A stretch of DNA of 64,000 bases from NCBI RefSeq assembly GCF_014646055.1, contig NZ_BMMS01000027.1, forward strand, positions 61,142 to 125,141, read 5' to 3'. Each line of letters starts with the position of its first letter. Positions within the stretch are counted from its first letter, which is position 1. This stretch comes from Wenjunlia tyrosinilytica (GTDB lineage: Bacteria > Actinomycetota > Actinomycetes > Streptomycetales > Streptomycetaceae). The position numbers were made by a program, and so were the translations under genes. Shown here one piece after another: positions 10,153 through 53,418 of the stretch. A model generated the notes under the pieces. The model had not been told where the DNA came from and made no database searches. It saw nothing but the letters and a program-made list of their open reading frames with translations.

Positions 10153-10516
10153 GACGTACTCCCTGTTGCACCGGTGCGGGCGGGGCTGCCCGGGGAGCCT
10201 GAGGGGAACTGGAGAAGCTGATCGGCGTGCTCAAGGCGGCAGTGTGCGGCCCCTCGGACGGCTCCCTCACCAGACTCCTATGCGGGCTCACAGCCCAAAC
10301 ATCGATCGGCGTCGGCGGACAGCCCACGTACCGATTTTCACGCCCGCGAGGCGTCATCCGCAGTGAACGGCTGACTCCTATGAAGTCACGGAAGCCCGAC
10401 CGGCCACGCGCCGGACGGCATCGCCCGGCAGGCCGACGATTCCCCAAGAGGACAACGGAAGCGTCAGTCAGGCGGAGAGTCAGACCTCCGGGCGATGCCA
10501 TCGCCAATCCTCACTG
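10153..10516 (-). ncRNA. Candidate bridge-RNA region of the IS110 element
   Basis: This noncoding stretch lies upstream of the transposase, where IS110-group elements encode their bridge RNA. The 10-mer gactcctatg occurs twice about 100 bp apart (10273-10282 and 10373-10382), and many GC-rich stems can form. I could not fold it or identify target and donor loops, so the call rests on position and family knowledge. Confidence 0.35.
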
Positions 10517-11133: not shown

Positions 11134-11137
11134 TGGG

Positions 11138-14067: not shown

Positions 14068-14089
14068 GGCGGTTGCTCCGGATGTAGCG

Positions 14090-14743: not shown

Positions 14744-14787
14744 GGCGTGTTTCCTTGGGACGGCAGGGAGTCTGGAGAAGGCGCGTG

Positions 14788-14807
14788 TCCCTCGCAGGGG
14801 CGATGAG
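14788..14807 (-). repeat. Isolated CRISPR-repeat-like sequence between cas7 and cas5
   Basis: The plus-strand sequence tccctcgcaggggcgatgag matches 18 of 20 bases of the array repeat core, including its hairpin and the flanking GATGAG. On the minus strand it lies inside the cas transcript, in the array sense, after the cas7 stop and before the cas5 ribosome-binding site. No second copy or spacer is nearby. Confidence 0.75.
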
Positions 14808-14822
14808 CGTGCGCGTCGGACG

Positions 14823-17311: not shown

Positions 17312-17382
17312 GACGTATGCCCCTCCTCGAGCAGCGGCCACGCACAACCGGTGCTGAGCCGCAGGACTGGATACGTTGACGC

Positions 17383-20464: not shown

Positions 20465-20512
20465 ATTCCTAGAGGAATTATTCTGTCCCGGGTGCCGATA
20501 CCATCTACTGTC
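20465..20512 (+). promoter_or_regulatory. valS upstream region with inverted repeat; possibly leaderless start
   Basis: ATTCCT (20465-20470) and AGGAAT (20473-20478) form an inverted repeat separated by AG. TACCAT at 20499-20504 fits a -10 element and would place transcription at or next to ATG 20513, giving a leaderless mRNA. No Shine-Dalgarno sequence precedes that ATG. The -35 is weak, so the inverted repeat may be an operator or activator site. Confidence 0.4.
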
Positions 20513-28150: not shown

Positions 28151-28351
28151 TCAACTGCCGGTGCTGCGGATTGACAGCGGCCTCATGTCCGTCCAGTTCT
28201 GCTCGATCCAGCTCAGGCAGTCCTCGCGCGGCCCGGACACGCCGGCGTCCCGCCAACCGGGCGGATTCGGACGGTCCGCGAGCCAGATGGAGTACTGCTT
28301 CTCGTCGTTGAGTACGACCTTGTACGGCGTGCCGGACTGTTCCGAGCTCAC
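28151..28351 (-). CDS. MbtH-like NRPS accessory protein
   Basis: This 66-residue protein starts at GTG 28351 after AAAGGA. MbtH-like proteins bind and stabilise NRPS adenylation domains. The family core is obvious: YKVVLNDEKQYSIWLADRP, then PPGWRDAGVSG and CLSWIEQNWTDMRP, with the conserved Trp residues. It is the only MbtH homologue in the window and presumably serves the A domains from 40.9 kb onward. It is too small to stand out among the overlapping frames here, so it is easily missed. Confidence 0.93.
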   Translation of the reverse strand: MSSEQSGTPYKVVLNDEKQYSIWLADRPNPPGWRDAGVSGPREDCLSWIEQNWTDMRPLSIRSTGS

Positions 28352-28475
28352 AGCGACGTCCTTTCCCCGTAACGAAATGTGATCTTCGACGGGCGACGCT
28401 ACTTGGATCGACTGAAGCTGCCATGAAGTCCTGCTGCCGACGGATGAAGCCGGACTGTTGAGCGTCAGGTGCCGG

Positions 28476-35476: not shown

Positions 35477-35823
35477 ACGGTTCCACCAGTCTGTTCGAGG
35501 GCCAATGGTCAAGTCTCTCCAATGTCTCTTGAACTACCTCGGAGCAGCGGCCTATCATATTACGGGAGTATGAACAGCAGGCTTGGTCATCGGTCATAGT
35601 GCCTGCTCGAGGGCCCATTCTGCGGCCCCTCGACACCGGTGCGGTGAGCACTCCCCCGCGCATTCCTGCCGCATGGCGGACGTGTAGAGAACTTGGCGGG
35701 CATTCATGGGTAGAGGCGCAATATTACCGTCCGCGCTGCGCTAGAGGTCTATACCATGCTGAGGTTGGGTTCGGTCTTGCTTCTGCGCTTGTCAAGCGGG
35801 GGCTGTGCAAAGGAAGTGGCAGC
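35477..35823. other. Intergenic region upstream of the SARP gene
   Basis: These 347 bp lack a supported gene. They are more AT-rich than the surroundings (tatcatattacgg, caatattaccg, ctataccatgc), as expected for a promoter region. One good promoter candidate is listed separately. The ribosome-binding site AGGAAG at 35811-35816 serves the SARP start. Frames open upstream of GTG 35824 are not supported. Confidence 0.55.
35529..35558 (+). promoter_or_regulatory. Candidate promoter for the SARP gene
   Basis: TTGAAC at 35529-35534 and TATCAT at 35553-35558 are spaced by 18 bp, a good vegetative-type promoter. It would give an mRNA leader of about 260 nt before GTG 35824, so a second, closer promoter near 35750 (TATACC) is possible. 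Confidence 0.45.
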
Positions 35824-37773
35824 GTGATCTCATCTCAATTGACGACGACCTCCCTGCGATTCGAAATCCTGGGGCCGGTCCGCGCCTGGCGTGACGGCGA
35901 GGAAGTCGACCTTGGGCCGGCACGGCAGCGAGCGGTGCTGGCACGGCTGCTGCTGTCTACGGGGCAACCCCAGACCATCCCAGACATCATTGCCGCGGTA
36001 TGGGGAGACGAACTGCCAGGCAATCCGCGCAATCTCGTCCACAAGTACGTCGGTGGTCTCCGCCGGGCGCTCGAACCGGCCACCACGACCTCTCGCACCA
36101 GCCAGCTGCTGCCGCTGAACGCCAACGGTTATATGCTCCGGGCCGATCGTCGGCAGGTGGACCTCGACAACTTCACCCGCACCGTCTCCGAAGGGATCAC
36201 GCTTGCCGACATCGACCTGGCGACCGCCCGCGACCGCTACAACACCGCGATCGGTCTTTGGCAGGGCGAGGCTTTCGGGCAGCTCTCCGGGGAGTTCTTC
36301 GCTGCGGAACGCCACCGCCTCGCCGAGCGGCTGCTCACTGCGCACGAGGACCGCATTGCGATCGACCTCGCTCTCGGCGGCCATGCCGAAGCGGCAATCG
36401 AAGTGACCGCCCTTCTCACCGGGAACCCGCTCCGCGAACACCTCTCCGTACTTCTGATGACTGCCCTGTACCTGTCTGGCCGTCAAGCCGACGCGCTCCG
36501 AGTCTTCCACGACTATCGCCGCAACTTGGTCTCCGAGCTCGGCATCGAACCGGCGCAGGAGTTGCAGCGCGTCCACCGTCAGATCCTGGCCGGGCAGCCT
36601 GTCCGACAGATCACGTTGTCTACCGGCAAGACGATCGAACCCGCTGGGCGTTCTTCGGCCAGGGCCGACATCGGGGGCGCAGGGAGAGCGTCGAAACGCC
36701 ACAACCCGCTCTGTCACCTAGGGCCGGACATCAGCGACTTCACCGGCCGGGAACGGCAGGTCACCGAGATATGCTCCATCCTGGCTGAACCTGGCGATAC
36801 ACCGCCGGTCGTTGTCATCACAGGGATGGCCGGCGTGGGCAAGAGCGCCCTCGCGATCCGTGCCGCCCACCTGATGAAATCCCGCTTTCCCGGCGGTCAG
36901 TTCTACCTCAATCTTCGCGGAATGACCTCCGATCCGGTCCAGCCCGCCCAGGCGTTCCAGCGCCTACTGCGGCTGCTGGGCTCCGATGGCTCCGAGCAGG
37001 TGTATACCGACGACGAACTCGGCGAGCTCTATCGCACGGCGGTCCGCGGGCGCATGCTCACCGTGCTCGACGATGCGGCGGACGAACGGCAGGTCCGTCC
37101 GCTCCTCTCCGGCGCACCCACGCTCATCACGAGCCGTCGCAGGCTCGCTGGCCTGCATGGCGCGCGCATCATCGAACTCGACACGATGGCTGCGGAAGAT
37201 GCTCTTCGGATGCTCAGCCAGATCATCGGCAGCGACCGGACTGGCGCCGACCCCAGGGCGGCCGCGCGGATCCTGGACCACACTGAGGGGCTTCCTCTCG
37301 CCTTGCGCATAGCGGGCGCCCGACTCGTGGCGCGGCCGCACTGGACCCTTGGGCAGTTCGCTGACCGCCTCGGCGACCGGGAACGACGCCTGGCCGAACT
37401 CGCCCACAGCGACCTTGAGGTCCGGATGGCACTCGCGGCAACCCTGCACCACCTCTCCCAGGAGAGCACGCAGGCCTTCCTCAACTTGGCCGCGCACGGC
37501 GCGCACACCTTCACTGCTGCTGACGCCGCCGGAATCCTCGGCACGGACGAGCTGGAAGCCGCGGACATCATCGAGGAGTTGGTCGACCTGCGCCTGGTCC
37601 ACGTCGAGCACGGTCAGGGTACCGGTCGGCTAGCCTACCGCCTGCGTGATCTCGTCCGGTTGTTCGCATGCGGTCAGGCCGCCGCCCACCAGCGGCACCC
37701 GCAACAGCCCAGCTCCAGGAGTGGCCCGACCTTCCGCCGCCAGGGTGTCCTGCAGAGTCTCCAGATCTCGTAG
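35824..37773 (+). CDS. SARP/AfsR-family pathway activator
   Basis: This 649-residue protein starts at GTG 35824, fixed by AGGAAG seven bases upstream; the frame is open further 5' but without similarity. Order: an OmpR-like winged-helix DNA-binding domain (RFEILGPVRAWRDG at the start, QRAVLARLLLS), a bacterial transcriptional activation domain to about residue 260, then an NB-ARC ATPase with Walker A GMAGVGKSALA (about residue 334). The C-terminus stops soon after the NB-ARC region, without the TPR repeats of full AfsR. SARPs activate secondary-metabolite operons by binding direct heptamer repeats near the -35. It lies between the sugar-like operon and the assembly-line genes and is the most likely cluster activator. 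Confidence 0.9.
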   Translation: MISSQLTTTSLRFEILGPVRAWRDGEEVDLGPARQRAVLARLLLSTGQPQTIPDIIAAVWGDELPGNPRNLVHKYVGGLRRALEPATTTSRTSQLLPLNANGYMLRADRRQVDLDNFTRTVSEGITLADIDLATARDRYNTAIGLWQGEAFGQLSGEFFAAERHRLAERLLTAHEDRIAIDLALGGHAEAAIEVTALLTGNPLREHLSVLLMTALYLSGRQADALRVFHDYRRNLVSELGIEPAQELQRVHRQILAGQPVRQITLSTGKTIEPAGRSSARADIGGAGRASKRHNPLCHLGPDISDFTGRERQVTEICSILAEPGDTPPVVVITGMAGVGKSALAIRAAHLMKSRFPGGQFYLNLRGMTSDPVQPAQAFQRLLRLLGSDGSEQVYTDDELGELYRTAVRGRMLTVLDDAADERQVRPLLSGAPTLITSRRRLAGLHGARIIELDTMAAEDALRMLSQIIGSDRTGADPRAAARILDHTEGLPLALRIAGARLVARPHWTLGQFADRLGDRERRLAELAHSDLEVRMALAATLHHLSQESTQAFLNLAAHGAHTFTAADAAGILGTDELEAADIIEELVDLRLVHVEHGQGTGRLAYRLRDLVRLFACGQAAAHQRHPQQPSSRSGPTFRRQGVLQSLQIS

Positions 37774-38736: not shown

Positions 38737-38927
38737 GGCGAGACCCCTTTGCGGCGGCTGGCTTGTTGGTTATTCATCAAACTAGCCGAAATCGATGCCT
38801 TCAAGGTGCGCGGACGCGGGCTCGCAGTGGGGCTTCACTGTGCCGCAGCCGGAGTTCACGGGGGCTTCAGTCGGCGCTTGTAGCGTTACGGGACACGAAA
38901 GCTGATTGTGAGAAGGGTAGTCCAGGG

Positions 38928-40940
38928 TTGTTGGCGGAGACAGATCTCAACGGGGTGCTGAGGTGGCGTGCCGAGAACGATCCTGACGGCGTTCCCTACA
39001 CTTTCCTCAAGGGATTCCAGGGAAGCGAATTCACATCCGGTCAATCGCTAACCAACCATGAACTCTTGGTCCGTTCCAAGGCGTTGGCAGCTCGCATTCA
39101 GGAGGGCGCGAAGCCGGGGGACCGGACCCTGATCCTCAACCAGCCCGGGCTGGACTACATCGTCGGAGTCTTCGCGAGCATGCTCGCTGGGACGGTCGCC
39201 GTGCCGGCGTATCCGCCGGAGCAGACCCGGCTGAACCGGGGCCTGGAGCGCATCCGGGGCGTCGCCGACGATGCCCGTCCCAGCTGCGTCCTGGTGGACG
39301 ACGCGACGGCGGCCGCGGTCGGTGACGCTCTGCGGGCCGCGCTCCCCGAGGCGCGGTGGATCGACTCGACCGCCGCCGACCCAGAGCTCGAGGACGCCTG
39401 GCGGGAGCCGGGGACCGGATCGGCCGATCTTGCGGTGCTGCAGTACACCTCCGGCTCGACCGGGCACCCCAAGGGGGTAATGCTTTCGCACGGGAACTTG
39501 ATGCGGAATCTGCGCGCAGGGCGCGACGCCTACGGCATCGAAGGCCGGATGGACGGGGTTTTCTGGATTCCTCCCTACCATGACATGGGCCTCATCGGCG
39601 GAATCCTAATGACGCTTTTCTGTGGCGGGCGGGCCCGCCTCTTCGCGCCGTTCGCCTTTCTCCGGTATCCGCTGCGCTGGGTCCGGGCCATGTCCGAATT
39701 TGGCTCCTATGTCAGCGCGGCCCCGAACTTCGCGTACGAGATGGCGGCCCGTGCCGGTCGGGACGCCCCCGAAGAGGTCGCCCGACTGGATCTGAGCGGC
39801 TGGCAGGTCGCCATATCCGGCGCCGAACCGGTGCACTGGAAAACGCTCGAGGAATTCTCCTCAATATTCGCCCCGGCTGGATTCCGACGCGACGCGTTCC
39901 ACCCGTCCTACGGGTTGGCGGAGAACACGCTGGTCGTGACCGGCCGGCCCTGCGGCCGGTCCGTGGTGAGGCTGGATGCGGGCGAGCTGGAACGGCATCG
40001 GGTCCGGGAGACGGCTCCGGGGCCGACCGCGCGCACGGTGGTCGGGTGCGGCACCGGAGCCGATCCCGAGCAGCGGGTCGAGATCGTCGACCCGTGGACT
40101 GGACTCCGCTGCGCCGAGGACACTATCGGCGAGATCTGGGTGAGCGGCGGAAGCGTGGCACTGGGCTACTGGAACCGCCCGGAGGAGACGGAGTCGACTT
40201 TCCGCGCGTCCATCGGTGGTGTCGACGGGCCGTTCCTGCGGACCGGCGACCTCGGCTTCCTGCGGGACGGCGAGCTGTTCGTCACCGGCCGGTCGAAGGA
40301 CCTGGTCATCGTTCGTGGACGCAACCACTACCCACAGGACCTGGAGCGGACCGCGGAGGCGGCGCACCCTGGCGTGCGCTCCGGTCGGTGCGTGGCGCTC
40401 TCGGCCGACCACGAGGGCGCCGACGAACTGGTGGTCGCCGTCGAGGGGCCGCCAGCGGCTGACGAGAGAGTTCGCGCGGAGATCGCCGAGGCGATCAGGG
40501 CTGCGATCGGCGAGCAGCATGGGATCGCCGTGCACGCGGTTGCGTTCGTGCCGCGGGGCGGGATCCGCCGGACATCGAGCGGGAAGCTCCGGCGCTCCGC
40601 TGTCCGGGCTTCATATCTGGCCCACGAGTACGTCTCGCATACCCCTAGCCGGGCCCCCTACACTGCCCCGCGCGACGCGATCGAGCGGACCGTCGCCGCG
40701 ATCTGGAGCAGCGTCCTGGCCGTGGAACGGGTCGGAATCCACGACCAGTTCTTCGAACTGGGCGGGGATTCACTCAAGGCGGTCCGGCTGCTGGCCCGGC
40801 TGAACGCCAGCGAGGGCTACACGCTGACGCTGTCCGACGTGGCGAGCGCGCACACGGTGGAGGAGTTCGCGGATGTGGTCCGCAGGCGCGGCGGGCGCTC
40901 GGCGATCGCCGCACAGGACATCCAGATCGATCTCGGCTGA
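38928..40940 (+). CDS. Fatty acyl-AMP ligase fused to an acyl carrier protein (loading module)
   Basis: This protein of about 670 residues has an uncertain start: TTG 38928 is preferred, with GAGAAGGG upstream, and no ATG or GTG fits. The FAAL domain has YTSGSTGHPKGVMLSHGNLM and WIPPYHDMGLIGG. APNFAYEMAAR, RTGDLGFLRDGELFVTGRSK and a C-terminal SSGKLRRSA also fit; these are diagnostic of FAALs rather than acyl-CoA ligases. The C-terminal carrier domain has FFELGGDSLKAVRLL with the phosphopantetheine Ser. The enzyme activates a free fatty acid as acyl-AMP and loads it on its own ACP, giving a lipo-initiated assembly line. Chain length cannot be read from sequence. NRPS module 1 starts 23 bp downstream. 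Confidence 0.88.
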   Translation: MLAETDLNGVLRWRAENDPDGVPYTFLKGFQGSEFTSGQSLTNHELLVRSKALAARIQEGAKPGDRTLILNQPGLDYIVGVFASMLAGTVAVPAYPPEQTRLNRGLERIRGVADDARPSCVLVDDATAAAVGDALRAALPEARWIDSTAADPELEDAWREPGTGSADLAVLQYTSGSTGHPKGVMLSHGNLMRNLRAGRDAYGIEGRMDGVFWIPPYHDMGLIGGILMTLFCGGRARLFAPFAFLRYPLRWVRAMSEFGSYVSAAPNFAYEMAARAGRDAPEEVARLDLSGWQVAISGAEPVHWKTLEEFSSIFAPAGFRRDAFHPSYGLAENTLVVTGRPCGRSVVRLDAGELERHRVRETAPGPTARTVVGCGTGADPEQRVEIVDPWTGLRCAEDTIGEIWVSGGSVALGYWNRPEETESTFRASIGGVDGPFLRTGDLGFLRDGELFVTGRSKDLVIVRGRNHYPQDLERTAEAAHPGVRSGRCVALSADHEGADELVVAVEGPPAADERVRAEIAEAIRAAIGEQHGIAVHAVAFVPRGGIRRTSSGKLRRSAVRASYLAHEYVSHTPSRAPYTAPRDAIERTVAAIWSSVLAVERVGIHDQFFELGGDSLKAVRLLARLNASEGYTLTLSDVASAHTVEEFADVVRRRGGRSAIAAQDIQIDLG

Positions 40941-40963: not shown

Positions 40964-43900
40964 ATGGTTCCCGAGAGCATCGCAGAGCTGGTGGGCTCGC
41001 TGGCCGCACAGGGTGTGGGGGTCTTCCTGGAGGAGGGTCGGCTGCAGTGCCGCGGCCCGCGGGGCGTCCTCTCGGCCGAGCTCCTGGAGACCATACGCGG
41101 CCACCGGGACGAGATCGTGCGGTTCCTGGAGCGCGAACACGATCCCTCGCGGCCGCACCCCCTGACCGCAGGTCAGCAGAGCCTCCTGCTGCACCAGCGA
41201 CTGACGCCGAACAGCGTCGCCTACAACCTCGCGTTTGCGGCGAACGCCGACAACGCGCTGGACGCGGAGTCCCTGGACGCTGCCCTCCGCGAAGTGGTCA
41301 CCCGCCACTCGATCCTGCGGACCACGTACGCGTGGCAGGACGGCGAGCCGACCCAGCGCACCCAGCCGGTTCCTGCGCGGATTCTCGACACCCAAACGGT
41401 AGCGGCCGAGCTGGTGGAAAGCACGGTCGAGGCGTTCATGGACCGCCCGTTCGACCTCGAGCGCGAGGCGCCGATCCGTGCCGCGATCATCTGTACCGGC
41501 CTCGAGGATCAGCGGCCGGTGATCGTCCTGGTGGTCCATCACATCGCGGCGGACCTCTGGTCCATCGACGTAATCGTCGAGCAGTGGCTCGGCGGGTACC
41601 GGAACCGCGTGGACAATGGCGGCCCGCGGTCGGCGCCGATTGGCAGCAACTTCATCGACCAGGTACGCAGCGAGGCGGCCTGGCTGGCCAGCTCAGCGGC
41701 CGACGTGGAACGCAGTCTCGCATTCTGGCGCGACCGGCTCGGCGATGAACCGGCCGTGCTGAACCTGCCGTTCGACCGGCCGCACCCGGCCGTGCAGAGC
41801 TTCGGCGGCGGCCGGATTTCCCTTGAGCTGGACGCGGCTCTGTCCACGCGTATCGACGCGCTCGCGCGCAAAGCCGATGTTACGCCTAATATGCTCTTTC
41901 TGTCGGCCTTCCAGGTGCTGCTCCAGAAGTACAGCGGTTCGGACGACGTCGTGGTCGGCACACCGGTCGCGGGGCGCCGAACCCCCCCGGTACAGAACGC
42001 GGTGGGCTTTTTCGCCGACCCCGTAGTGGTTCGCGCCGATCTCCGCGGCGACCCCCCCTTTGCCCACGTTCTCGACGCCACGCGGGCGAACCTGCTGAAC
42101 GCCCTTGATCACCCCTATCCCTTCCCGCTGCTCGTCGAACAGCTCAACCCCGTCCGCGATCCGAGACGGTCACCGCTCTTCCAGGTCATGTACGTCTGGC
42201 AGCAGACGCGCCAGCGTCATGACCAGGTGCGGCTGACCCCGCTCTCCTCGTCGGGCCAGCGCGGTGCCGCGTACGACCTGGTCCTGTCGGTCGGACAGTC
42301 CGGCGGGCGCTTCAGCTGCTCCTGGAGCTACAACCTCGGCCTCTTTAATCGGTCGACGGTTGAGCGCATGGCGCACGCTTTCCTCGAGATCCTCGGCGGG
42401 ATAGTGGCGCGCCCCTCGGACCCAATCTCGCTGCTCCCCTCGATGTCCGCCGACGAGCTGGGCGCCGTCCGTCGTGTGTCGGCCGGGCCGGTCACGGAAC
42501 TGTGCGAGCCACCGTGGCCCGAGCAGTTCGACTCCCAGGCGCGGCGGACGCCGACGGCGACGGCGCTGGTCTGCGGGGACGAGACACTGACCTACCAGCA
42601 ACTCGCCGACCGCGTGGGCCGATGCTCCGCTGCACTTCGGGCACGGGGCGTGGCCGAGGAGGTGCGTGTCGGCCTATGTATCGAGCGATCGGCCGCCCTG
42701 GTAGTGGCGATGCTGGCGATCGCCCGGGCTGGCGGGGTCTATGTCCCCCTCGATCCGGACTACCCGGCGGACCGCCTCGCCCACATGGCGTCGGACTCGG
42801 GGATTGCCCTGTGCGTTGCTGACGAGCGAGGCAGGCTGGCCCTCCGGTCCCACCGCGGCGAAGTTCTCGACCTCGATGTGCTGATTGGCGAAGCGGCGGC
42901 CCTGGAGCCATCGCCAGCCGCTGCGGTCTCGGGCGACGCGCTCGCGTACTTGATCTACACGTCGGGATCGACCGGCCGCCCCAAGGGAGTGATGGTCACA
43001 CGGCGCAACGTCGCCAACCTCTTCGCAGGCCTCGACGGTTCCGTGGGGGAGGGGCCGGGAACGGCGCAGGCCCAGCCGGTCTGGCTCGCCGTGACGAGCG
43101 TCTGCTTCGACATCTCGGTACTTGAACTGCTCTGGACCCTCTGCCGGGGCCACCAGGTAGTGATCGAGCCCGAGTTGTGGACCGCGCGTGCCCGGCCCGT
43201 TCCGTCCCGGGACAGGCGGAAGGTCGACTTCAGCTTGTTCTACTTCGCCGCCGAACCGGGCCCGCGACGCGGCAGCGAGGTCTACCGACTGCTCCTCGAC
43301 GGGGCCCGGTTCGCGGACACCCACGGTCTGCACGCGGTCTGGCTGCCTGAGCGGCACTTCCACGCCTTCGGCGGCGCCTACCCGAATCCGTCCGTTCTGG
43401 CGGCCGCCGTCGCGGCGGTGACGGAGCGGGTCGGGATCCGGGCCGGGAGCGTCGTCCTGCCGCTGCAGGACCAGCTGCGGGTCGCCGAGGAATGGGCCGC
43501 GGTCGACAACCTGGCGGACGGACGCGTCGGTCTGTCGTTCGCCTCCGGCTGGCAACCCGACGACTTCGTGCTGGCGCCCACGCGCTACGCCGACCGTCGC
43601 GAGACGATGTGGCAGGACATCGAGACCGTCCGCAGGCTCTGGCGCGGCGAGTCCGCACCCCGAACCAACGGCGTCGGGGCTGAGGTCCAGGTCACCACGC
43701 TGCCCCGGCCGGTCCAGCTCGAGCTCCCGGCCTGGGCGACTGCGGCAGGAAGTGACGAAACCTTCCGCCAGGCCGGCGAACGCGGCCTGAACATCCTTAC
43801 CCACCTGCTGGGCCAGAACATCCACGAGCTGGCGCGGAGGATCCGTGTCTACCGGGAGTCGAGGGCCGCCGCCGGGCACGACGAAGGCGTCGTGACTCTG

Positions 43901-45451
43901 ATGCTGCACACCTTCGTCCACCCGGACGAGGAACTCGTGCGCGAGGCCGTCACCGAACCCTTCAAGAACTACCTCCGGAGTTCCATCGACCTGATGCGCG
44001 GCCTAGCCAAGGGGCTCGGCCTCGACCCGGTCCAGCACCAGGACCTGATCGTCAACCATGCGTTCGACCGGTATTTCCGGACCAGCGCCCTGTTCGGCAC
44101 CCCCGAGTCCTGCGCCGACTTCGCCCGCGAGCTGGCGAACATCGGCGTCGACGAGATCGCCTGCCTCATCGACTTCGGAGTCGGCGACAAGCAGGCGCTC
44201 GACGCGCTGCGCAACATCGTGGCCGTGCAGCACGCAGTCAGCAGTGGCCCGGGTGGCCGCACGCCCACCGTGTCGGAGGCGATTGCGCGGCACGGCGTCA
44301 CCCACCTGCAGTGCACCCCGGCCTTCGCGGGGCTTCTGCTGCTTGAACGAAAGGGCGCGCCGACGGAAAAGGGCCCGCTGCGCCGGCTCCTGGTCGGAGG
44401 GGACGCCGCGCCCCCCGAGCTCGCGGGGCGCCTGCGAGACACGGGCGTGACGGAGGTCTTCAACATGTACGGACCGACTGAGACCTGCGTCTGGTCGGCG
44501 GTCCAGCAGCTCGAAACCGACCGGCTGGGCCGGGTGACCGTTGGCGGACCGATCGCCAACACGACCCTCCAGGTTCTCGACGCCCGCCTGCAGCCGGTCC
44601 CGGCCGGAGTGCCCGGCGAACTCCACATTGGCGGCGCGGGCGTCGCACGAGGGTACTGGAATAGGCCCGGGCTGACGGCGGACCGGTTCATACCCGATCC
44701 GTTCGCCACCCGGACCGGCGCGCGGATGTACCGGACCGGCGACATCGTCCGCTCGCTCGGCGACGGTCGTCTGGAGTTCCTCGGTCGCGCCGACCACCAG
44801 GTGAAGGTGCGGGGATACCGCATCGAGCCAGGCGAGATCGAGAATGTGCTCGGTACGCACCCCGGGATCGACAGCTGCGCCGTGGTCGCCCGGCGGGACC
44901 GCGGCGGCGACGCCGCCCTGGTCGCGTTCGTCGTCCCCCGTGCGGGCACGGAGTGGGCAGAGTGGAGCGTCCGGGCGCACGCGAGGCGGCTGCTGCCCGA
45001 GCACATGGTGCCGTCGCAGATCGTCGACGTGGAAGGGCTGCCGTTGACGCTCAACGGGAAGGTCGACCGGGCAGCCCTGGTGGCACAGGCTAACGAGGTG
45101 GACGGGTCGCGCCGCGCCGCCTATGTGGCGCCGCGCAACCGGATCGAGGACTCCCTCCAGCAGATCTGGCAGGAACTGCTCGAACGGCCCGGCGTCGGTG
45201 TGCACGAGAACTTCTTCGAGATCGGTGGCCACTCGCTTCTCGCGGCGAAGCTGCACGCGCGGATCGTCGCGGCGGAGCTGGGCGACATCGAACTCGTCGA
45301 TCTCTTCAGTCACCCGACCATCGCAGGCCTCGGGGCACGGCTCGGCGATGGCGGCGACGCCGCGAACGTGCGGGTCCGGAGTATTGACAGCAGGGTGAGC
45401 AGGCAGCAGGCCGCCGCGCGTCGGCAGCAGCGCAGGAGGCAGGGCTCATGA
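40964..45451 (+). CDS. NRPS module 1: docking-C-A[LLM]-PCP, glycine-like code
   Basis: This 1495-residue NRPS has ATG 40964 preceded by GGGGGAAGGGG. Domains: TubC-type docking domain (1-60), condensation (about 65-490; HHIAADL at 191-197, final Gly replaced by Leu), adenylation from about 520, and PCP (Ser1424 in IGGHSLLAAKL). The A domain is split after motif A4 (FDISVLELLW, 715-724) by a luciferase-like monooxygenase of about 340 residues (about 752-1090; VDFSLFYFAAEPG, GLSFASGWQPDDF, EPFKNYLRSS), then resumes as VTHLQCTPAF. Specificity residues D716, I717, L720, Q1116, L1143, G1145, M1168, V1176, W1177 give DILQLGMVW, close to the glycine code DILQLGLIW. The LLM probably oxidises the tethered residue. 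The PKS gene overlaps by 4 nt. Confidence 0.93.
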   Translation: MVPESIAELVGSLAAQGVGVFLEEGRLQCRGPRGVLSAELLETIRGHRDEIVRFLEREHDPSRPHPLTAGQQSLLLHQRLTPNSVAYNLAFAANADNALDAESLDAALREVVTRHSILRTTYAWQDGEPTQRTQPVPARILDTQTVAAELVESTVEAFMDRPFDLEREAPIRAAIICTGLEDQRPVIVLVVHHIAADLWSIDVIVEQWLGGYRNRVDNGGPRSAPIGSNFIDQVRSEAAWLASSAADVERSLAFWRDRLGDEPAVLNLPFDRPHPAVQSFGGGRISLELDAALSTRIDALARKADVTPNMLFLSAFQVLLQKYSGSDDVVVGTPVAGRRTPPVQNAVGFFADPVVVRADLRGDPPFAHVLDATRANLLNALDHPYPFPLLVEQLNPVRDPRRSPLFQVMYVWQQTRQRHDQVRLTPLSSSGQRGAAYDLVLSVGQSGGRFSCSWSYNLGLFNRSTVERMAHAFLEILGGIVARPSDPISLLPSMSADELGAVRRVSAGPVTELCEPPWPEQFDSQARRTPTATALVCGDETLTYQQLADRVGRCSAALRARGVAEEVRVGLCIERSAALVVAMLAIARAGGVYVPLDPDYPADRLAHMASDSGIALCVADERGRLALRSHRGEVLDLDVLIGEAAALEPSPAAAVSGDALAYLIYTSGSTGRPKGVMVTRRNVANLFAGLDGSVGEGPGTAQAQPVWLAVTSVCFDISVLELLWTLCRGHQVVIEPELWTARARPVPSRDRRKVDFSLFYFAAEPGPRRGSEVYRLLLDGARFADTHGLHAVWLPERHFHAFGGAYPNPSVLAAAVAAVTERVGIRAGSVVLPLQDQLRVAEEWAAVDNLADGRVGLSFASGWQPDDFVLAPTRYADRRETMWQDIETVRRLWRGESAPRTNGVGAEVQVTTLPRPVQLELPAWATAAGSDETFRQAGERGLNILTHLLGQNIHELARRIRVYRESRAAAGHDEGVVTLMLHTFVHPDEELVREAVTEPFKNYLRSSIDLMRGLAKGLGLDPVQHQDLIVNHAFDRYFRTSALFGTPESCADFARELANIGVDEIACLIDFGVGDKQALDALRNIVAVQHAVSSGPGGRTPTVSEAIARHGVTHLQCTPAFAGLLLLERKGAPTEKGPLRRLLVGGDAAPPELAGRLRDTGVTEVFNMYGPTETCVWSAVQQLETDRLGRVTVGGPIANTTLQVLDARLQPVPAGVPGELHIGGAGVARGYWNRPGLTADRFIPDPFATRTGARMYRTGDIVRSLGDGRLEFLGRADHQVKVRGYRIEPGEIENVLGTHPGIDSCAVVARRDRGGDAALVAFVVPRAGTEWAEWSVRAHARRLLPEHMVPSQIVDVEGLPLTLNGKVDRAALVAQANEVDGSRRAAYVAPRNRIEDSLQQIWQELLERPGVGVHENFFEIGGHSLLAAKLHARIVAAELGDIELVDLFSHPTIAGLGARLGDGGDAANVRVRSIDSRVSRQQAAARRQQRRRQGS

Positions 45452-48400
45452 ACAATCAGCCCGCGGGCGACGACGGCGTTCAGCCCATCGCGGTCATCGG
45501 CATGGCTGGCCGCTTCCCGGGGGCGGCCGACCCGGAGGCGTTCTGGCGGAACATCGCAGCCGGAGTCGAGTCACTCGTCCGCCTCTCGGAGGACGACCTG
45601 ATCGCGGCCCGCGTCCCGGAGGAGCGGTACCGCGACCCACACTACGTGCGGGCCGCCACTGTGCTAGACGGCATGGACCGGTTCGACGCTGGGTACTTCG
45701 GCTTCACCCCGATGGAGGCGTCGATCCTCGACCCGCAGCACCGGCTGCTCCTCGAGTGCACTCAGGAGTTGTTCGACACAGCCGGGTACGACTCGTGCCG
45801 CCTGGATAAGACCACCGGTGTCTACGTCGGTGTCGGGTTCCCCTCGTACCTTGTCAACAACCTGTTGGCCCGCCCCGAGATCATCGAACAGGTCGGGATG
45901 CAGCGGATCTTCTTCGCCACCGATAAAGGGTTTGCGCCCACCAGGATCTCGCACAAGTTCGATCTGACCGGTCCGAGCATCGGTGTCGACACGGCGTGTT
46001 CAACCTCGCTCGTCGCGGTCCACCAGGCTTGCAGGGCGCTGCTGGCCTACGACTGCGACCTCGCGATCGCCGGTGGCGCCAGCTCGGTCTTGCCCAACGG
46101 CGTCGGTTACCAGTACCACGAGGGCGGCATCAGTTCTCTAGACGGGCACTGCCGGGCGTTTGACGCCCGTGCCGGGGGCACCCGGTTCGGCAGTGGCGTG
46201 GGGCTCGTCCTGCTCAAGCGGCTGGAGGACGCACTGGCCGACGGCGATCAGGTGCTCGCCGTGATCCGGGGTTCTGCGGTCAACAACGACGGGGCGTCGA
46301 AGGCGGGATTCACCGCGCCGAGCGCGACCGGCCAGGCCCTCGTCGTGGCGGAGGCCCTGGCCTTCGCCGAGGTGTCGCCGGATTCGGTCGGCTACGTCGA
46401 GGCCCACGGAACGGGGACCGTCATCGGTGACCCGATCGAGATCTCCGGTCTGACCCGGGCCTTCCGCAAGGGGACAGACCGACGGCAGTACTGCGCCATC
46501 GGGTCGGTCAAGACGAACGTCGGCCACCTCGATGTCGCGGCCGGCGTGAGCGGACTGATCAAGACCGTCCAGGCTCTGCGGCACGCGGAGCTGCCGCCCA
46601 GCCTGCATTGCGAGCAGCCCAACCCGGCGATCGACTTCGCGAGCAGCCCGTTCTACGTGAACACCGAGCTGCGCCCCTGGACGTCCTCCAGCGGTCCCCG
46701 GCGGGCCGGAGTGAGTTCGTTCGGGATCGGCGGCACGAACGCCCACGTGGTGCTGGAGGAGGCTCCCCCCCGGGGGGCTTCGGGGCCATCGCGCGCGGAG
46801 CATCTGGTGGTGGTCTCCGCCCGCTCGGCCGAGGCACTCGACCGCGCCCGGGCCGACCTCGCCGCCGCGTTCCGGAACGCAGTCGATGAGGCTCTGCCCG
46901 ATCTGGCCTTCACGCTCAGCGTCGGGCGGCGGGCGCACGCCCACCGTCAGGCCTTCGTCTGCCGCACCCGCGCGGAGGCGGTCGACCTGCTCGAAGGGGC
47001 CAGACCCTCAGCCGTCCGGTCGGGGATGCACACGGGGGATGCGCCGCGGATCGCGTTCCTCTTCCCCGGGCAGGGCGCCCAGCAAGTGCGGATGCTGGCC
47101 GACCTCCAACGCGGGGAGGAGGTCTTCCGGCGGGAGGTCGAGCGGTGCGCCATGCACGTCGAGAAACGTCTCGGCCTCGACATGTGCGAGGTGATCTACC
47201 CCGTTGGTCAGGGCGGCGACGCCCGTCTCGATGAGACATGGCTCACCCAACCCGCCCTGTTCGCGGTCTCATTGGCGACGGCCCGGCTCTGGCAGTCCTG
47301 GGGCGTCCAGCCGGACGTGCTGCTCGGACACAGTCTCGGTGAGTATGTCGCTGCGACGGTCGCTGAGGTCTTCGGCCCGGAGGACGCCCTGGACCTGGTG
47401 ATCGACCGGGCGCGCTTGATGAACGGTCTGCCCGCCGGGGCGATGACCGCGGTGTCGCTCGACGCGGCAGCGCTCGAACCGCTCCTCGGGCAGTGCTCTC
47501 TGGCGGCCGTCAATGCCCCTGGGCAGTGCGTCGCCTCGGGGCCGCTCGCGGCCGTCGAGGAGCTCGAGGCCCGGATGGCGGCCGCCGGCGTCGTGCACCG
47601 CAGGCTCCGCACCTCCCACGCGTTCCACTCGGCCATGCTGGACGAGGTCGCCGGAGCGTACCGGGAACGTGTGGCGCAGGCCCGGCCGGGTGTGCCGCGC
47701 ACACCGATCGTGTCGTGTCTGACGGGCCGCGTCCTGGAGCCCGGCGAGAGCTCCGATCCCGCGTACTGGGCCCGGCAGATGCGGGGCACGGTCAGGTTCG
47801 CCGAAGCGGTGCGGACCATCGCCGAGGACCCGCACCGCCTTTTCCTGGAAGTGGGGCCCGGCCGAACCCTGACCTCGATGGTGCGGAGGTCCGGCATCGC
47901 ACCCGAGCGCGCCCTCGCCTCGGCCCGGGGCGACGGCGACTCCCGGACAGACGGTGAGGCCCTGTTGGACGCGCTCGGCGCCCTCCACTGCGCCGGGGCT
48001 CCGGTTGCCTGGGAGCGGTTCTGGGCGGGCGAGCGGCGGCACCGCCTGCCGCTGCCGAGCTACCCCTTCGAGCGGCAGCGTCACTGGATCGACCCGAACC
48101 CGGCGGAGCGGCCCGCCCTCGAAATCCCGGCGGCGAGTCGGGACGGCGAGACTCTGTCCGCCCGTACCTGGCGCCCGGCCCCGCTCGATCCGGGTCCGTC
48201 CAAGCGGCCGGCCGGGGGCGACTGGCTGCTGCTGGTGGCGGACGACGCGCTCGGATGTGCGCTGGAGGCCCGCCTCGCCCAGCGCGGGGCGTCGGTGGTG
48301 CGGATCCGGCCGGGTGTCGAACTCGCCGAGACCGCTGAAGAGTTCGTCGTAGACCCGGCACGCCCGGACCTCGTCGAGCGCCTGCTCGAGGCACTTGAGG

Positions 48401-51400
48401 AGCGCGGTCGGACGCCGAGCGACGTCGTGCTGGCCTGCGACCGCGGGGCGGCCGAGAACGTCGATGCCGCCCAGCGCGCAGGGCTGGAGACCGCGGCGGT
48501 CTGGATCCGGGCCCTGGCCTCGCGGGCGACAGGTGAGCCCGTCCGGCTCGCTGTGGTGGCCGACCGGCTGGCCCGAGTCCTGCCGAGTGACGAACCGGCG
48601 ACCGCCATGGGGTCGCTGGTCGGCTTCTGCCGCGCGGCCGCCGAACACCCCGAGCTGGCGGTCGCCTGCATCGACATCGACGAGCCCAGCGCCGCGGAAG
48701 CCGCCGACGCCGTCCTCGCGGAGCTGACGGCTGGCCCGGCCGACGCCCTTGTCGCGTATCGGTCGGGCCGGCGCCACATCGAGTCGTACGAGCCGGTCGC
48801 TCGGGCCGAGGGCGGTGCGCGCGCGAGTGGGAGCTATCTCGTCACCGGCGGGTACGACGGCCTGTCCGCGATCCTCGCCCGCCGCCTCGCCGAACGGCAC
48901 GGCGCACGGCTCACCCTGGCCGGGCCGGAGCCGGTGCCGCCCAGGACCGAGTGGCCGGGCTGGTTCGGCGAAGACACCGGAGTGGAGTTGGCGCGCGGCG
49001 CGGCCGAGGCCGAGGCCGGCGTCGTCACGGGCGCCCTGCGCCACGATGTCGAGGCACTGTCGGACGTTGAGCGGGAGCTCGCCGCCGAGGCGGGCCCGGG
49101 GTTGCCGCTCGAGCTGGTCGGGGCGACCCTGAACCGGCTGTGCGGCAGCTACGTGCACGGCACGCTTCTCCGGGCAGGCGTCGACCTGACCGAGGGGCAG
49201 GTGTACAAGCGATCCGAGATCGCCCGGCGGATGCGAATCCTGCCGATCTTCGAGAAATTCCTCGACTTCTTCCTTGAGGTGCTCCACGAGGATGGGGTCA
49301 TCCGTCGGGAGGGCGACCGGATCGAGGTCCTGATCGGTCCGGAGGCCGTGCCCCCCGCTGACTCCGTCGCCGCCAGGGCGCTACTGCCGGGATTCGAAGC
49401 GACTATCGACTTCCTGGAACACTGCGTCGCCCACTACCCGGCGGCCCTCAGCGGCGACATCGACGCGATCGGGGTGCTCTTCCCAGAGGGAGACCCCAAG
49501 CCGCTGGAGGCAGCGTTCCGCCGGCTGTTGGACGGGAGCAACTTCGACGTCTACGCGGGGCTGCTGGGCCGCCTGCTCGCCCGGCTGCCCGAGGGCCGAC
49601 CGGGGCGGCCCCTCCGAATCCTCGAAGTCGGCGGTGGAAATGGACAGTTGACCCGGCTCATCGCCCCGATGCTGAGCGAGCGGGAGGTGGAGTACCGGTT
49701 CACCGATCTCGGCGGCTCGTTTGTCCGCCGGGCGCGGGAGGAACTGGCCGACCTGGGCTTCGGCGACCTGCGCTGCCAAATTTTGGACATCACGAAGGAC
49801 CCGGTCGCCCAAGGCTTCGAACCGTACTCGTTCGACGCAGTGATCGGCTTTGACGTCGTCCACGCCACCCGGCGGATCGACCGGACGTCGGAGAACCTGC
49901 GCGGGCTGCTCGCGCCCGGCGGACTGCTCTGCCTCGTCGAGGCGGTGGCCTCGCTGCGCTGGGTCGAGATGCTGTGGGGTCTGGCCGAGGGATGGTGGCT
50001 GTTCGAGGACCATGAGGTCAGGACAGGGTCGCCGCTGGTACCGCTGGACACCTGGGACCGAGTCCTCGGCGAACTGCCGTTCGCGGACACCGTGTCGTTC
50101 CCACGTGATCGGGCGGCCCGGGAAAGCACGTACTACGGACTGGTCCTCGCCCAGCAGCCCGAGGTATTCGACACCCCTGACCGTTCCGCAAAGCTGGCAC
50201 GCCGGGCCGAGGAGATCCTCCAGATCAACCGCACGCGTATCCAGGCCGTCCGCGATCTCGAGGCGGCCGGAGCGGAAGTCCTGCTGGTCCGGGTGGACCT
50301 GACCTCCCCCGTACAGGTGGCCGAGGCCGTCGCGACCGCCCGGACGCGCTTCGGCGCGCTGGACGGAGTCGTCCACGCTCCGGAGACGGTGGGCGGGGAG
50401 CCGGGCCAGGACTGGACCCCGGCGAGCCTGCGGGCCCTGGCTGCTGCCCACGGCCGGATGGCGCGGGCGGTCGAGGCGGCTGCCGCTGACACGGGCGTGG
50501 AGAGCGTCACGTATGTCTCGCTAGACGCCGCTCCCGGCGGCGGGGATGCTCTACGGGCCGCGACCGTGGCCGGACTGCTTGACGCGTTCGCCGCTTCCGG
50601 CGGTGCCGGCAGCCGGTCGGGGTCGATCCACTGGAACGGCGACGAGGAGCTCAACCAGCTGGACGACGCCATCGGCAGCTCGGGTGTGATCCACGTGTCG
50701 GCACAGAGCCCTGCGGCGGCACGAGCGGCGGGCACCGACCGGCAGCGAGCCTGGCTCGAGGCCCGTGGCACCCGCGGCGACCCGGCGGAGGACGTCGAGC
50801 GGGAGCTCCTGGTGATCTTCCAGCAGCTCTTCGGAATGGACGCGATCGGCCTCGATGACGACTTCTACCAACTCGGCGGCGACTCGCTGCTGGCCGTTCA
50901 GGTGGTGGCACGGGTGCGGCGGCGCTTCGGCGTGGACATCGCGGTCAAGGCGGTCCTCCAGGCTCCCACGGTCGCGAGGCTCGCTCAGCGGGTGCGCGCG
51001 ACGGGTCAGGGCGGCCAGCACACGGACACGCCCCTGCTGCGCGTTCCGCGGCACGATCTGATGCCGCTGTCGTTCGGTCAGGAGTCGCTGTGGCTCGCCG
51101 AGGAGCTCCACGGGCCGAGCGCGACGTACAACATCCCCGGCGCGGTGCGTCTGATCGGGAGGTTGGAGACCGGGGCGCTGCGGCGGTCCCTGCGCCAGGT
51201 CATCCAGCGGCACGAGGTGCTGCGCACCACCATCCACGCCGTGGACGGACTGCCGGGGCAGCGGGTGCACGACGAGCTGAACGTCGAGTTGCCCGTGCGA
51301 GACGTGCGCGAGGAGCAGATCAGCGACCTGGCCCAGGAGCACGCGCGGACGGTGTTCGATCTCACGTCCGGGCCGCTGATCCGGGTGACCCTGCTCCGGG

Positions 51401-53418
51401 TCGGCCCCGAGGACCACGTGCTTCTGGTGAACATCCACCACATCGTGTCCGACGGCTGGTCACTCGGCGTGCTGGTGGAGGAACTCGTCACCTTGTACTC
51501 GGCATTCGTCCGCGGCGGACCGTCGCCGCTCGAACGACTGGATCACCAGTACGTGGACTTCGCGCAGTGGCAGCGCCGCTGGCTGGAGGGCGAGGTCTTC
51601 GACCGGCAACTCGCCTTCTGGCGGCGCAAGCTCGCCGGAGCGCCGTCGCTACTGGAGCTGCCGACCGATCGGCCGCGCCCCGAGATCCAACGGATCCACA
51701 ACGCGGTCCGGAAGTTCGTGGTCCCTCCTGAGGTCTCGGCGGACCTCGTGGCGCTCGGCAGGGCCGAGGGGGCGACCCTCTTCATGGTGCTGCTCGCCGC
51801 GTTCAAGGTCTTGCTCGCCCGCTACTCCGAGCGGACCGACATCATCGTCGGAACGACGAGCGCCAACAGGACCCGCGCCGTCTTCGAGCAGATGATCGGC
51901 ATGTTCGTGAACAACCTGGCACTGCGGACCGACCTGTCCGGGAACCCGACGTTCCGTGAACTCCTGGCCCGGGTCCGTGACACGGCAGTGGACGCCTACG
52001 CACACCAGGACCTGCCGTTCCGGACTCTCGTGGACGAGCTGCGTCAGGATCGGAGTACGGCCGTCACACCGGTGTTTCAGGTTCTCTTCCTGCTGCAGAA
52101 GCTGAACATCACCCTGGAACTGCCGGGGATCACCGCGCACACGCTCGAAGTTGACGCGCTCCACACCAAGTTCGACCTGACCCTGTTCATGGAGGAGCAA
52201 GAGAACGGGATCGAAGGCACCTTCATCTACAACGCGGAGCTCTTCGACGAGCCGACCGTCGAGCGCATGGCGGCACACCTCCGGCGGCTCCTGGTGAGCG
52301 CGGTGGCCGCGCCGGACATCCGAATCGAATCACTGCGGATGGCGACCGATGACGAGGAGAGAGTGCGTCACATGGCCGAGGCGAGCGCGAAGACGTCGAT
52401 GCTCCAGTCGCTGCATAGCGCGAAGCGGCGCTCGGTGGAGATCGCCGGGATCAACCCAGTCACCACCGGATTCCTGCCGGGACTGCCCGATACGCCGCTC
52501 GTCGTGGAGCCGGCCGTCGTGCGCGCCGACCTGCCAGGCTGGCTGCGGTCACACCGCGGGGTCGTCGATTCCCAATTGCACCGGCACGGTGCGCTGCTGT
52601 TTCGCGGCTTCCACGGCGGCTCGGTCGAGAAGTTCGAGGAAGTGGCGCACGCGATCTGCGCGACACTCTACCGGGAGTACGGGGACCTGCCGAGGGAGGG
52701 CGACTCGGTACAGGTCTACAAGTCGACTCCGTACCCCAGCGACCGATCGATTCTCTTCCACAACGAGAGTTCCCACCTCAGCAGCTGGCCGATGCGGCAG
52801 CTGTTCTCCTGCATCGTCGCACCGCAGGACGGCGGGGAGACCCCGGTCGTCGACTGCCGGAAGGTCTACGCTGGCCTCCGGCCCGAGCTGATCGAGATGT
52901 TCCGGCGTAGGAGGCTGCGTTACGTCCGCAACTTCATCGAGTCGGTCGATGTGAGCTGGTCCCAGTTCTACGGGACGGATGATCGCGCGTTCGTGGAGCG
53001 TAAGTGCCGCGAGGAGGGCACCGGTTTCGAGTGGGCCCTGGACGGGACGCTGAGGACCTGGCGGGTCGCCGACGCGGTCGTCCGGCACCCGCGAACCGGG
53101 GAGATGGTGTTCTTCAACCAACTGGCTCTCCATCACGCCTCGTGTCTCGACCCCGACACCCGTCGGTCCCTGGGCGCCCTCTACGGCGAGCAGGGCATGC
53201 CGCGCAACGTCTACTGGGGTGACGGCTCCCTCATCGAGGACGAGGTGGTCGCCGAGGTCCGGGAGTTGATGGATCGTGAGGCGATCACCTTCCGCTGGCA
53301 GGAGGGCGACGTGCTGGTCATCGACAACATGCTCGTCGCGCATTCGCGGCTGCCCTTCGTCGGTCCGCGGAAGATCGTCGTGGCCCTCGGCGACATGATG
53401 GAAGCGGAGACCCACTGA
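45448..53418 (+). CDS. Hybrid PKS-NRPS: KS-AT-KR(MT)-ACP-C-TauD
   Basis: 2656 residues. KS (about 10-440) has Cys184 in DTACSTSL and both catalytic His motifs (EAHGTGT, KTNVGHLD). AT (about 530-820) has Ser629 in GHSLGEY and HAFHS near 724, which favours malonyl-CoA. A ketoreductase follows (structural half about 920-1120, SYLVTGGYDG near 1129), with a methyltransferase inserted (about 1190-1560; ILEVGGGNGQ at 1391). The KR catalytic YAAAN motif is missing, so the keto group should stay. ACP Ser1813 (LGGDSLLAV) leads to a C domain with HHIVSDG at 1997-2003. The last 340 residues are a TauD-type Fe(II)/2-oxoglutarate hydroxylase with H2438-x-E2440, H2632 and R2641. The partner A domain is in the next protein. 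Confidence 0.93.
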   Translation: MNNQPAGDDGVQPIAVIGMAGRFPGAADPEAFWRNIAAGVESLVRLSEDDLIAARVPEERYRDPHYVRAATVLDGMDRFDAGYFGFTPMEASILDPQHRLLLECTQELFDTAGYDSCRLDKTTGVYVGVGFPSYLVNNLLARPEIIEQVGMQRIFFATDKGFAPTRISHKFDLTGPSIGVDTACSTSLVAVHQACRALLAYDCDLAIAGGASSVLPNGVGYQYHEGGISSLDGHCRAFDARAGGTRFGSGVGLVLLKRLEDALADGDQVLAVIRGSAVNNDGASKAGFTAPSATGQALVVAEALAFAEVSPDSVGYVEAHGTGTVIGDPIEISGLTRAFRKGTDRRQYCAIGSVKTNVGHLDVAAGVSGLIKTVQALRHAELPPSLHCEQPNPAIDFASSPFYVNTELRPWTSSSGPRRAGVSSFGIGGTNAHVVLEEAPPRGASGPSRAEHLVVVSARSAEALDRARADLAAAFRNAVDEALPDLAFTLSVGRRAHAHRQAFVCRTRAEAVDLLEGARPSAVRSGMHTGDAPRIAFLFPGQGAQQVRMLADLQRGEEVFRREVERCAMHVEKRLGLDMCEVIYPVGQGGDARLDETWLTQPALFAVSLATARLWQSWGVQPDVLLGHSLGEYVAATVAEVFGPEDALDLVIDRARLMNGLPAGAMTAVSLDAAALEPLLGQCSLAAVNAPGQCVASGPLAAVEELEARMAAAGVVHRRLRTSHAFHSAMLDEVAGAYRERVAQARPGVPRTPIVSCLTGRVLEPGESSDPAYWARQMRGTVRFAEAVRTIAEDPHRLFLEVGPGRTLTSMVRRSGIAPERALASARGDGDSRTDGEALLDALGALHCAGAPVAWERFWAGERRHRLPLPSYPFERQRHWIDPNPAERPALEIPAASRDGETLSARTWRPAPLDPGPSKRPAGGDWLLLVADDALGCALEARLAQRGASVVRIRPGVELAETAEEFVVDPARPDLVERLLEALEERGRTPSDVVLACDRGAAENVDAAQRAGLETAAVWIRALASRATGEPVRLAVVADRLARVLPSDEPATAMGSLVGFCRAAAEHPELAVACIDIDEPSAAEAADAVLAELTAGPADALVAYRSGRRHIESYEPVARAEGGARASGSYLVTGGYDGLSAILARRLAERHGARLTLAGPEPVPPRTEWPGWFGEDTGVELARGAAEAEAGVVTGALRHDVEALSDVERELAAEAGPGLPLELVGATLNRLCGSYVHGTLLRAGVDLTEGQVYKRSEIARRMRILPIFEKFLDFFLEVLHEDGVIRREGDRIEVLIGPEAVPPADSVAARALLPGFEATIDFLEHCVAHYPAALSGDIDAIGVLFPEGDPKPLEAAFRRLLDGSNFDVYAGLLGRLLARLPEGRPGRPLRILEVGGGNGQLTRLIAPMLSEREVEYRFTDLGGSFVRRAREELADLGFGDLRCQILDITKDPVAQGFEPYSFDAVIGFDVVHATRRIDRTSENLRGLLAPGGLLCLVEAVASLRWVEMLWGLAEGWWLFEDHEVRTGSPLVPLDTWDRVLGELPFADTVSFPRDRAARESTYYGLVLAQQPEVFDTPDRSAKLARRAEEILQINRTRIQAVRDLEAAGAEVLLVRVDLTSPVQVAEAVATARTRFGALDGVVHAPETVGGEPGQDWTPASLRALAAAHGRMARAVEAAAADTGVESVTYVSLDAAPGGGDALRAATVAGLLDAFAASGGAGSRSGSIHWNGDEELNQLDDAIGSSGVIHVSAQSPAAARAAGTDRQRAWLEARGTRGDPAEDVERELLVIFQQLFGMDAIGLDDDFYQLGGDSLLAVQVVARVRRRFGVDIAVKAVLQAPTVARLAQRVRATGQGGQHTDTPLLRVPRHDLMPLSFGQESLWLAEELHGPSATYNIPGAVRLIGRLETGALRRSLRQVIQRHEVLRTTIHAVDGLPGQRVHDELNVELPVRDVREEQISDLAQEHARTVFDLTSGPLIRVTLLRVGPEDHVLLVNIHHIVSDGWSLGVLVEELVTLYSAFVRGGPSPLERLDHQYVDFAQWQRRWLEGEVFDRQLAFWRRKLAGAPSLLELPTDRPRPEIQRIHNAVRKFVVPPEVSADLVALGRAEGATLFMVLLAAFKVLLARYSERTDIIVGTTSANRTRAVFEQMIGMFVNNLALRTDLSGNPTFRELLARVRDTAVDAYAHQDLPFRTLVDELRQDRSTAVTPVFQVLFLLQKLNITLELPGITAHTLEVDALHTKFDLTLFMEEQENGIEGTFIYNAELFDEPTVERMAAHLRRLLVSAVAAPDIRIESLRMATDDEERVRHMAEASAKTSMLQSLHSAKRRSVEIAGINPVTTGFLPGLPDTPLVVEPAVVRADLPGWLRSHRGVVDSQLHRHGALLFRGFHGGSVEKFEEVAHAICATLYREYGDLPREGDSVQVYKSTPYPSDRSILFHNESSHLSSWPMRQLFSCIVAPQDGGETPVVDCRKVYAGLRPELIEMFRRRRLRYVRNFIESVDVSWSQFYGTDDRAFVERKCREEGTGFEWALDGTLRTWRVADAVVRHPRTGEMVFFNQLALHHASCLDPDTRRSLGALYGEQGMPRNVYWGDGSLIEDEVVAEVRELMDREAITFRWQEGDVLVIDNMLVAHSRLPFVGPRKIVVALGDMMEAETH

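Follow-up and report, generated by a model that had tools for sequence, protein, structure and literature searches.

The assembly line encoded in the analysed stretch of Wenjunlia tyrosinilytica DNA (64,000 nucleotides, referred to below as the window) is predicted to build a peptide capped by a fatty acid and contains two modules in which a luciferase-like monooxygenase (LLM) domain is embedded in a glycine-code adenylation (A) domain; the line most likely makes two alpha-hydroxyglycyl units, the second of which would be epimerised. The preliminary description of this DNA had listed a single A[LLM] module: This module was recovered as described, whereas a second one in the same line (code DILQLGVIW, LLM at 58575-59576) had been overlooked; it is part of the protein at 53421-62123, the next but one after that of module 1. 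Module 1 is encoded by the open reading frame at 40964-45451 (1495 amino acids; domain order TubC_N-C-A[LLM]-PCP), in which Pfam placed TubC_N at residues 6-56, Condensation at 66-497, AMP-binding from residue 522 onwards (interrupted), Bac_luciferase at 756-1064, AMP-binding_C at 1291-1366 and PP-binding at 1397-1459. Its features, in window positions, are:

40979..41131, + strand: TubC_N docking domain (Pfam PF18563, 47.5 bits)
41159..42454, + strand: condensation (C) domain with the motif HHIAADLWS (Pfam PF00668 and motif)
42527..43177, + strand: N-terminal part of the A domain, A1-A4 including FDISVLELLW (Pfam AMP-binding, residues 522-738)
43229..44227, + strand: embedded luciferase-like monooxygenase (LLM/MOx) no. 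1 (TIGR04020, 465.7 bits; PuwE 6ket, 361 bits, fold Z 46.4)
44267..45061, + strand: C-terminal part of the A domain, A5-A10, completing the code DILQLGMVW (domain matches and code alignment)
45152..45340, + strand: PCP (Pfam PP-binding)

The insert comprises 333 residues within an otherwise intact A domain, beginning approximately 30 residues past the A4 motif FDISVLELLW and ending approximately 80 residues ahead of the A5 motif YGPTE. Its proposed location between A4 and A5 was borne out by the match to TIGR04020 (the MupA/Atu3671 family of natural-product LLMs), by the code alignment and by the superposition of the structural model: The match of LLM 1 covers model positions 1-340 of 341 and, like that of LLM 2 (505.7 bits, positions 1-341), passes the curated cut-off of 244.45 bits over the full model. 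The core motifs of the A domain are intact on both sides of the insert, and an alignment of 27 relatives shows most of them unchanged; the nine-position code, recomputed by alignment, reads DILQLGMVW, i.e. glycine-like as previously stated. In the AlphaFold model (mean pLDDT 83.9) the A-domain fold and the oxygenase fold are both present: Solved A domains align structurally with model residues 1-756 (5n81: Z 48.3, 1.8 Å over 373 amino acids), and the oxygenase domain of PuwE with model residues 233-573 (6ket: Z 46.4, 2.0 Å over 340 amino acids), which is the bacterial-luciferase fold expected of the TIGR04020 family and agrees with the earlier family assignment. Core motifs of the LLM (such as W.PERHF, GS.V.P, GW...DF and LTH..G) are retained in LLM 1, in LLM 2 and across phyla; we infer that both domains are flavin-dependent oxygenases. 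Three residues of LLM 1, T933, H947 and G950 (window 43760-43813), are invariant as Thr/His/Gly in the A-embedded LLMs and variable in other family members, and are a possible signature of the glycine-acting type.

The remaining proteins of the line, including module 2, and the accessory genes are:

38763..40940, + strand: FAAL-ACP fatty-acyl loading protein (Pfam AMP-binding, AMP-dom_DIP2-like and PP-binding)
45448..53418, + strand: PKS-NRPS protein KS-AT-MT-(dead KR)-ACP-C-TauD (Pfam)
52522..53382, + strand: TauD-type Fe(II)/2-oxoglutarate hydroxylase domain (Pfam PF02668, 148.9 bits)
53421..54680, + strand: degenerate, interface-like C domain (Pfam Condensation, only 70 bits; HHxxxD motif absent)
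54735..56279, + strand: A domain with the aspartate-like code DLTKVGHVG (code reading)
56529..57836, + strand: C domain of the second glycine module (domain annotation)
58575..59576, + strand: embedded LLM no. 2 in the second glycine-code A domain, DILQLGVIW (TIGR04020, 505.7 bits; code)
60732..62021, + strand: epimerisation (E) domain, directly after A[LLM]-PCP no. 2 (motifs PIQHWF, HHTVVDGISW, RTVGWF and FNYLG intact)
62139..64000 (to 65328 on the contig), + strand: NRPS protein C-A-PCP, A code DPCSNALVY (C domain start YPLSQLQHAML, DCL type)
23811..27346, - strand: two ABC transporter genes, probable exporter (Pfam; 73-78% identical orthologs beside the cluster in the complete genome G610)
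28154..28366, - strand: MbtH-like protein (Pfam PF03621, 68.2 bits)
35599..37773, + strand: SARP/BTAD-type regulator (Pfam BTAD; ortholog at the G610 cluster)

The order of the line is FAAL-ACP; C-A[LLM](Gly)-PCP; KS-AT-MT-dead KR-ACP-C-TauD; degenerate C-A(Asp-like)-PCP-C-A[LLM](Gly)-PCP-E; C-A-PCP. Past the window end follow an aminotransferase class V protein and a PKS gene interrupted by the contig end (window position 68284). The position assigned to module 1, between an acyl loader and a PKS and with no terminal thioesterase (TE), is thus supported by the FAAL-ACP protein upstream and the KS protein downstream, and a gene for the MbtH protein named in the preliminary description is present. 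The loader has fatty acyl-AMP ligases as best NCBIfam matches, is kept in the three other copies of the cluster, and probably starts downstream of the annotated TTG; a separate stand-alone luciferase-like protein (37834-38736, - strand; with 73% identity to a gene close to the cluster copy in G610) adjoins its gene. The open reading frame of the PKS-NRPS protein overlaps the stop of module 1 by 4 bases, its KS has intact Cys and His residues, and the protein is expected to extend the oxidised glycyl chain. The catalytic Tyr/Asn of the KR are missing in all three aligned cluster copies, so that the beta-keto group would stay; the MT domain of the same protein may be a methyltransferase of either C- or O-type. 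The TauD domain likely acts on the Asp of the next module, and its position adjoining this Asp-code module suggests a beta-hydroxyaspartate. The start of the C domain that follows the E domain conforms to the YPLSxLQxAML type, which we take to be a DCL signature.

Several other loci lie upstream in the window. A second valyl-tRNA synthetase of alt_ValS type (20492-23065, + strand; 1448 bits) is encoded in addition to the canonical ValS on contig C1, and a spare synthetase beside biosynthetic genes can be a self-resistance copy. A thiopeptide-type bacteriocin biosynthesis domain (TIGR03891; 18669-20156, - strand) may mark an independent lanthipeptide/thiopeptide-like locus that precedes the NRPS-PKS line. 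A set of CRISPR-Cas genes similar to type I-B (10480-17689, - strand) comprises Cas3b, Cas7b, a weak Cas8b and a Cas1 match over only part of the model; the ergothioneine genes EgtA, EgtB and EgtD are located at 1486-6297 (+ strand).

The line is common to four actinomycete genomes, i.e. Wenjunlia tyrosinilytica, Streptomyces sp. Isolate_45 (L009), Saccharothrix sp. ST-888 (L010) and G610, and all three further copies contain both A[LLM] modules and the E domain of module 2 in identical domain order. Protein identities between the copies are approximately 62-68% (63-67% for the module 1 protein). In the LLM tree, for which three cluster copies were used, the module 1 and module 2 LLMs formed two separate groups with 100% bootstrap support, which indicates that the two-oxygenase design predates the split of the copies. 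Around the core of the G610 cluster, two ABC transporter genes, a SARP regulator, a stand-alone LLM gene and a two-module PKS were found, with orthologs in the window or on the contig.

Relatives of LLM 1 were collected by a scan with one genome per species, of which the best 80 of 181 confirmed loci were used; together with loci from related genomes, these yielded approximately 59 distinct A4-A5 A[LLM] modules. Every module whose code was read showed a glycine-like code (DI[LVT]Q[LIMAV]G[MVL][IV][WY]), compared with only 3 of 75 plain A domains at the same loci. The hosts include Actinomycetota, Bacteroidota, Cyanobacteriota, Acidobacteriota and Pseudomonadota, and in a broad phylum survey with an A[LLM] profile 4 of 396 sampled genomes scored above the strict threshold. 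This recurrence and the 63-67% identity of the module 1 protein in the three other cluster copies argue that the A[LLM] architecture is not due to chance. A single origin of the A-embedded LLMs was considered and not adopted, as the tree clusters them (10 changes versus 30 in shuffled trees) but its backbone is unresolved.

Nearly all of these modules are internal: The next domain is mostly C or KS, also E, and in Streptomycetaceae and Flavobacterium the A[LLM]-PCP stands immediately before a protein starting with KS; only one module (L174) ends in a thioesterase-like sequence (PCP-TE, the myxothiazol layout). In the sample surveyed, onward carriage of a putatively oxidised glycine is the rule and not the exception. 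The preliminary description had called such internal carriage unusual, a view that finds no support in this distribution or in solanimycin B, which retains alpha-hydroxyglycine (PMC10204066). E domains follow only a minority of the A[LLM] modules; with intact motifs they were found in three lineages, namely the present cluster, Mucilaginibacter (L032) and S. somaliensis (L065). None of 24 plain glycine-code A domains was seen with an E domain next, several of them being cut off before the next domain. Three E lineages against 24 controls are too few for statistical proof of a link between E domain and LLM, so that the numbers are suggestive only and the argument from the E domain is mechanistic rather than statistical. 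In six Streptomycetaceae modules (L176-L181) the A domain is interrupted twice, by the LLM between A4 and A5 and by a methyltransferase after A8; the best PDB match of this methyltransferase, which was checked by Pfam at one of the six loci, was the interrupted A domain 5wmm, known as a backbone N-methyltransferase.

We consider it probable, though well short of certain, that each embedded LLM makes an N-acyl-alpha-hydroxyglycyl thioester and that the chain is passed onward through both modules. The LLM would act on glycine bound to the neighbouring PCP and hydroxylate its C-alpha, most likely once the residue has been joined to the fatty acyl chain. The KS of the following protein would then take over and extend the product of module 1; module 2 would form a second alpha-hydroxyglycine, whose stereocentre the E domain would set or invert before the chain passes to the DCL-type C domain at the start of the next protein. 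A further proposal is more tentative and, in our estimation, somewhat less than evenly balanced: With two alpha-hydroxyglycines installed, one carbinolamide extended by a KS and the stereocentre of the other set by an E domain and gated by a DCL domain, the line would exert programmed stereocontrol at the carbinolamide carbon, in at least three separate lineages. Carbinolamides are labile, which counts against the carriage of alpha-hydroxyglycine, as does the cleavage of the chain at the carbinolamide by MtaG-type modules.

Oxidation at C-alpha is favoured by several lines of evidence. An E domain on a glycine module implies that C-alpha has been made chiral, since plain or N-hydroxylated glycine would give it nothing to do. 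The N-methyltransferase in the same A[LLM] module of the six relatives leaves C-alpha as the oxidised atom, an argument that concerns these relatives and not the present line. Within the LLM family, the domain of PuwE, the closest solved relative, has been credited with the 2-hydroxyl of puwainaphycin at the position alpha to the thioester (PMC4219810), and another member with a hydroxylation adjacent to the thioester in palmerolide (PMC8739492); the glycine-A and oxygenase modules of myxothiazol, melithiazol and solanimycin have likewise been assigned hydroxylation of C-alpha (PMC10204066, PMC11342130). Of the two products offered in the preliminary description, alpha-hydroxyglycine is therefore favoured and N-hydroxyglycine disfavoured.

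Hydroxylation might also be an intermediate step, the carbinolamide losing water to an N-acylimine or being trapped by a nucleophile, methylated or cyclised to another alpha-substituted glycine. The methyltransferase in the next module would suit this course, as would a relative (L182) in which, as read by eye, a sequence resembling FkbM-type methyltransferases follows the LLM; however, no dedicated trapping enzyme was identified and the MT domain belongs to the PKS module, and we regard this course as unlikely. Still less probable is N-hydroxylation to an N-acyl-N-hydroxyglycine (hydroxamate), which would be carried on and form, together with beta-hydroxyaspartate, the metal-binding site of a siderophore-like product. 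The FAAL-ACP start and the TauD/Asp pair are features seen in acylated siderophores, and the glycine-derived oximes of the necroximes have been proposed to arise via an oxygenase domain (PMC7318616). The necroxime glycine, however, is a primer with a free amine, whereas here the glycine is acylated, its A domain coming after FAAL-ACP and a C domain; moreover, the E domain, the N-methyltransferases of the relatives and the alpha-to-thioester assignments stand against N-hydroxylation, and the conserved neighbours of the cluster showed no genes for siderophore transport.

An amide-forming end step, dismissed in the preliminary description, is indeed unlikely, but its strict exclusion does not hold, as the carbinolamide of module 1 could fall apart mid-line with release of a fatty amide, leaving glyoxylyl-S-PCP to prime the downstream PKS. 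Such is the fate of the same kind of module in myxothiazol and melithiazol (PMC10204066, PMC11342130), and for photoxenobactins it has been proposed that the chain is oxidatively cleaved at C-alpha while still on the line (PMC9396620). The FAAL step would, however, be wasted in every round, the relatives are nearly all internal with no TE, and the E domain of module 2 and its DCL partner expect an intact residue, which renders this outcome very unlikely. Least likely of all is the incorporation of plain glycine by modules with inactive or optional LLMs: The oxidation could be skipped as for solanimycin A (PMC10204066), which counts against the alpha-hydroxyglycyl reading, but both copies retain the core LLM motifs, which are also conserved across phyla, and the two copies represent ortholog groups that had already separated before the cluster copies diverged.

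In textbook A[MOx] modules the chain is terminated by cleavage to an amide; according to the survey, modules of this kind, with an unchanged glycine code, serve mostly within assembly lines, in several phyla. Many orphan clusters for which standard prediction would call plain glycine therefore probably make alpha-oxidised glycine units, and the cases with an E domain point to the oxidised atom and to a hydroxyl-bearing centre that lasts long enough for epimerisation. Taken singly, the module represents a type that is known, widespread and little-studied, and its chemistry, although uncommon, has precedents. What is new, and of most interest, is the doubled module with a PKS behind one copy and E and DCL domains behind the other; an E domain acting after a glycine A[MOx] module was not reported in the literature searched, to which most subscription journals do not belong.

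Among related systems, the PuwE oxygenase domain of puwainaphycin (6ket) belongs to the same LLM family (361 bits by sequence; in the fold alignment, Z 46.4 with 50% identity across 340 residues), but is located between an aminotransferase and an NRPS module, outside any A domain, and acts on a beta-amino fatty acyl chain. Two candidates were set aside: Palmerolide is no precedent for glycine oxidation, as its LLM sits in module 9 and not in its glycine module (PMC8739492), and fabrubactin was not adopted as a match, as its alpha-hydroxy groups are assigned to FbnE (PMC12971057) and siderophore transport genes were not seen among the conserved neighbours. The corallorazine-like clade I clusters (38 pathways; PMC11342130) share a MOx inside the glycine A2 domain; they are, however, bimodular NRPSs with an N-methyltransferase in the glycine module and do not form a FAAL-initiated PKS hybrid. 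MtaG of myxothiazol and MelG of melithiazol are described (PMC10204066, PMC11342130) as carrying the oxygenase within a glycine A domain, between A4 and A5 as found here; in contrast to these terminal modules, in which PCP-TE follows and the chain is cleaved to the amide, both present modules are internal, with KS or E next. Solanimycin B retains alpha-hydroxyglycine from the internal glycine module 4 of SolF, which likewise combines a glycine A domain with a flavin oxygenase and is followed by further modules; its insert, however, lies between A8 and A9 instead of A4 and A5, and the accessible part of the report (PMC10204066) mentions no E domain, whereas the present line has two such modules, one of them ahead of a PKS. 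The present line is thus the A4-A5 insertion of myxothiazol and melithiazol combined with the internal use of solanimycin, twice.
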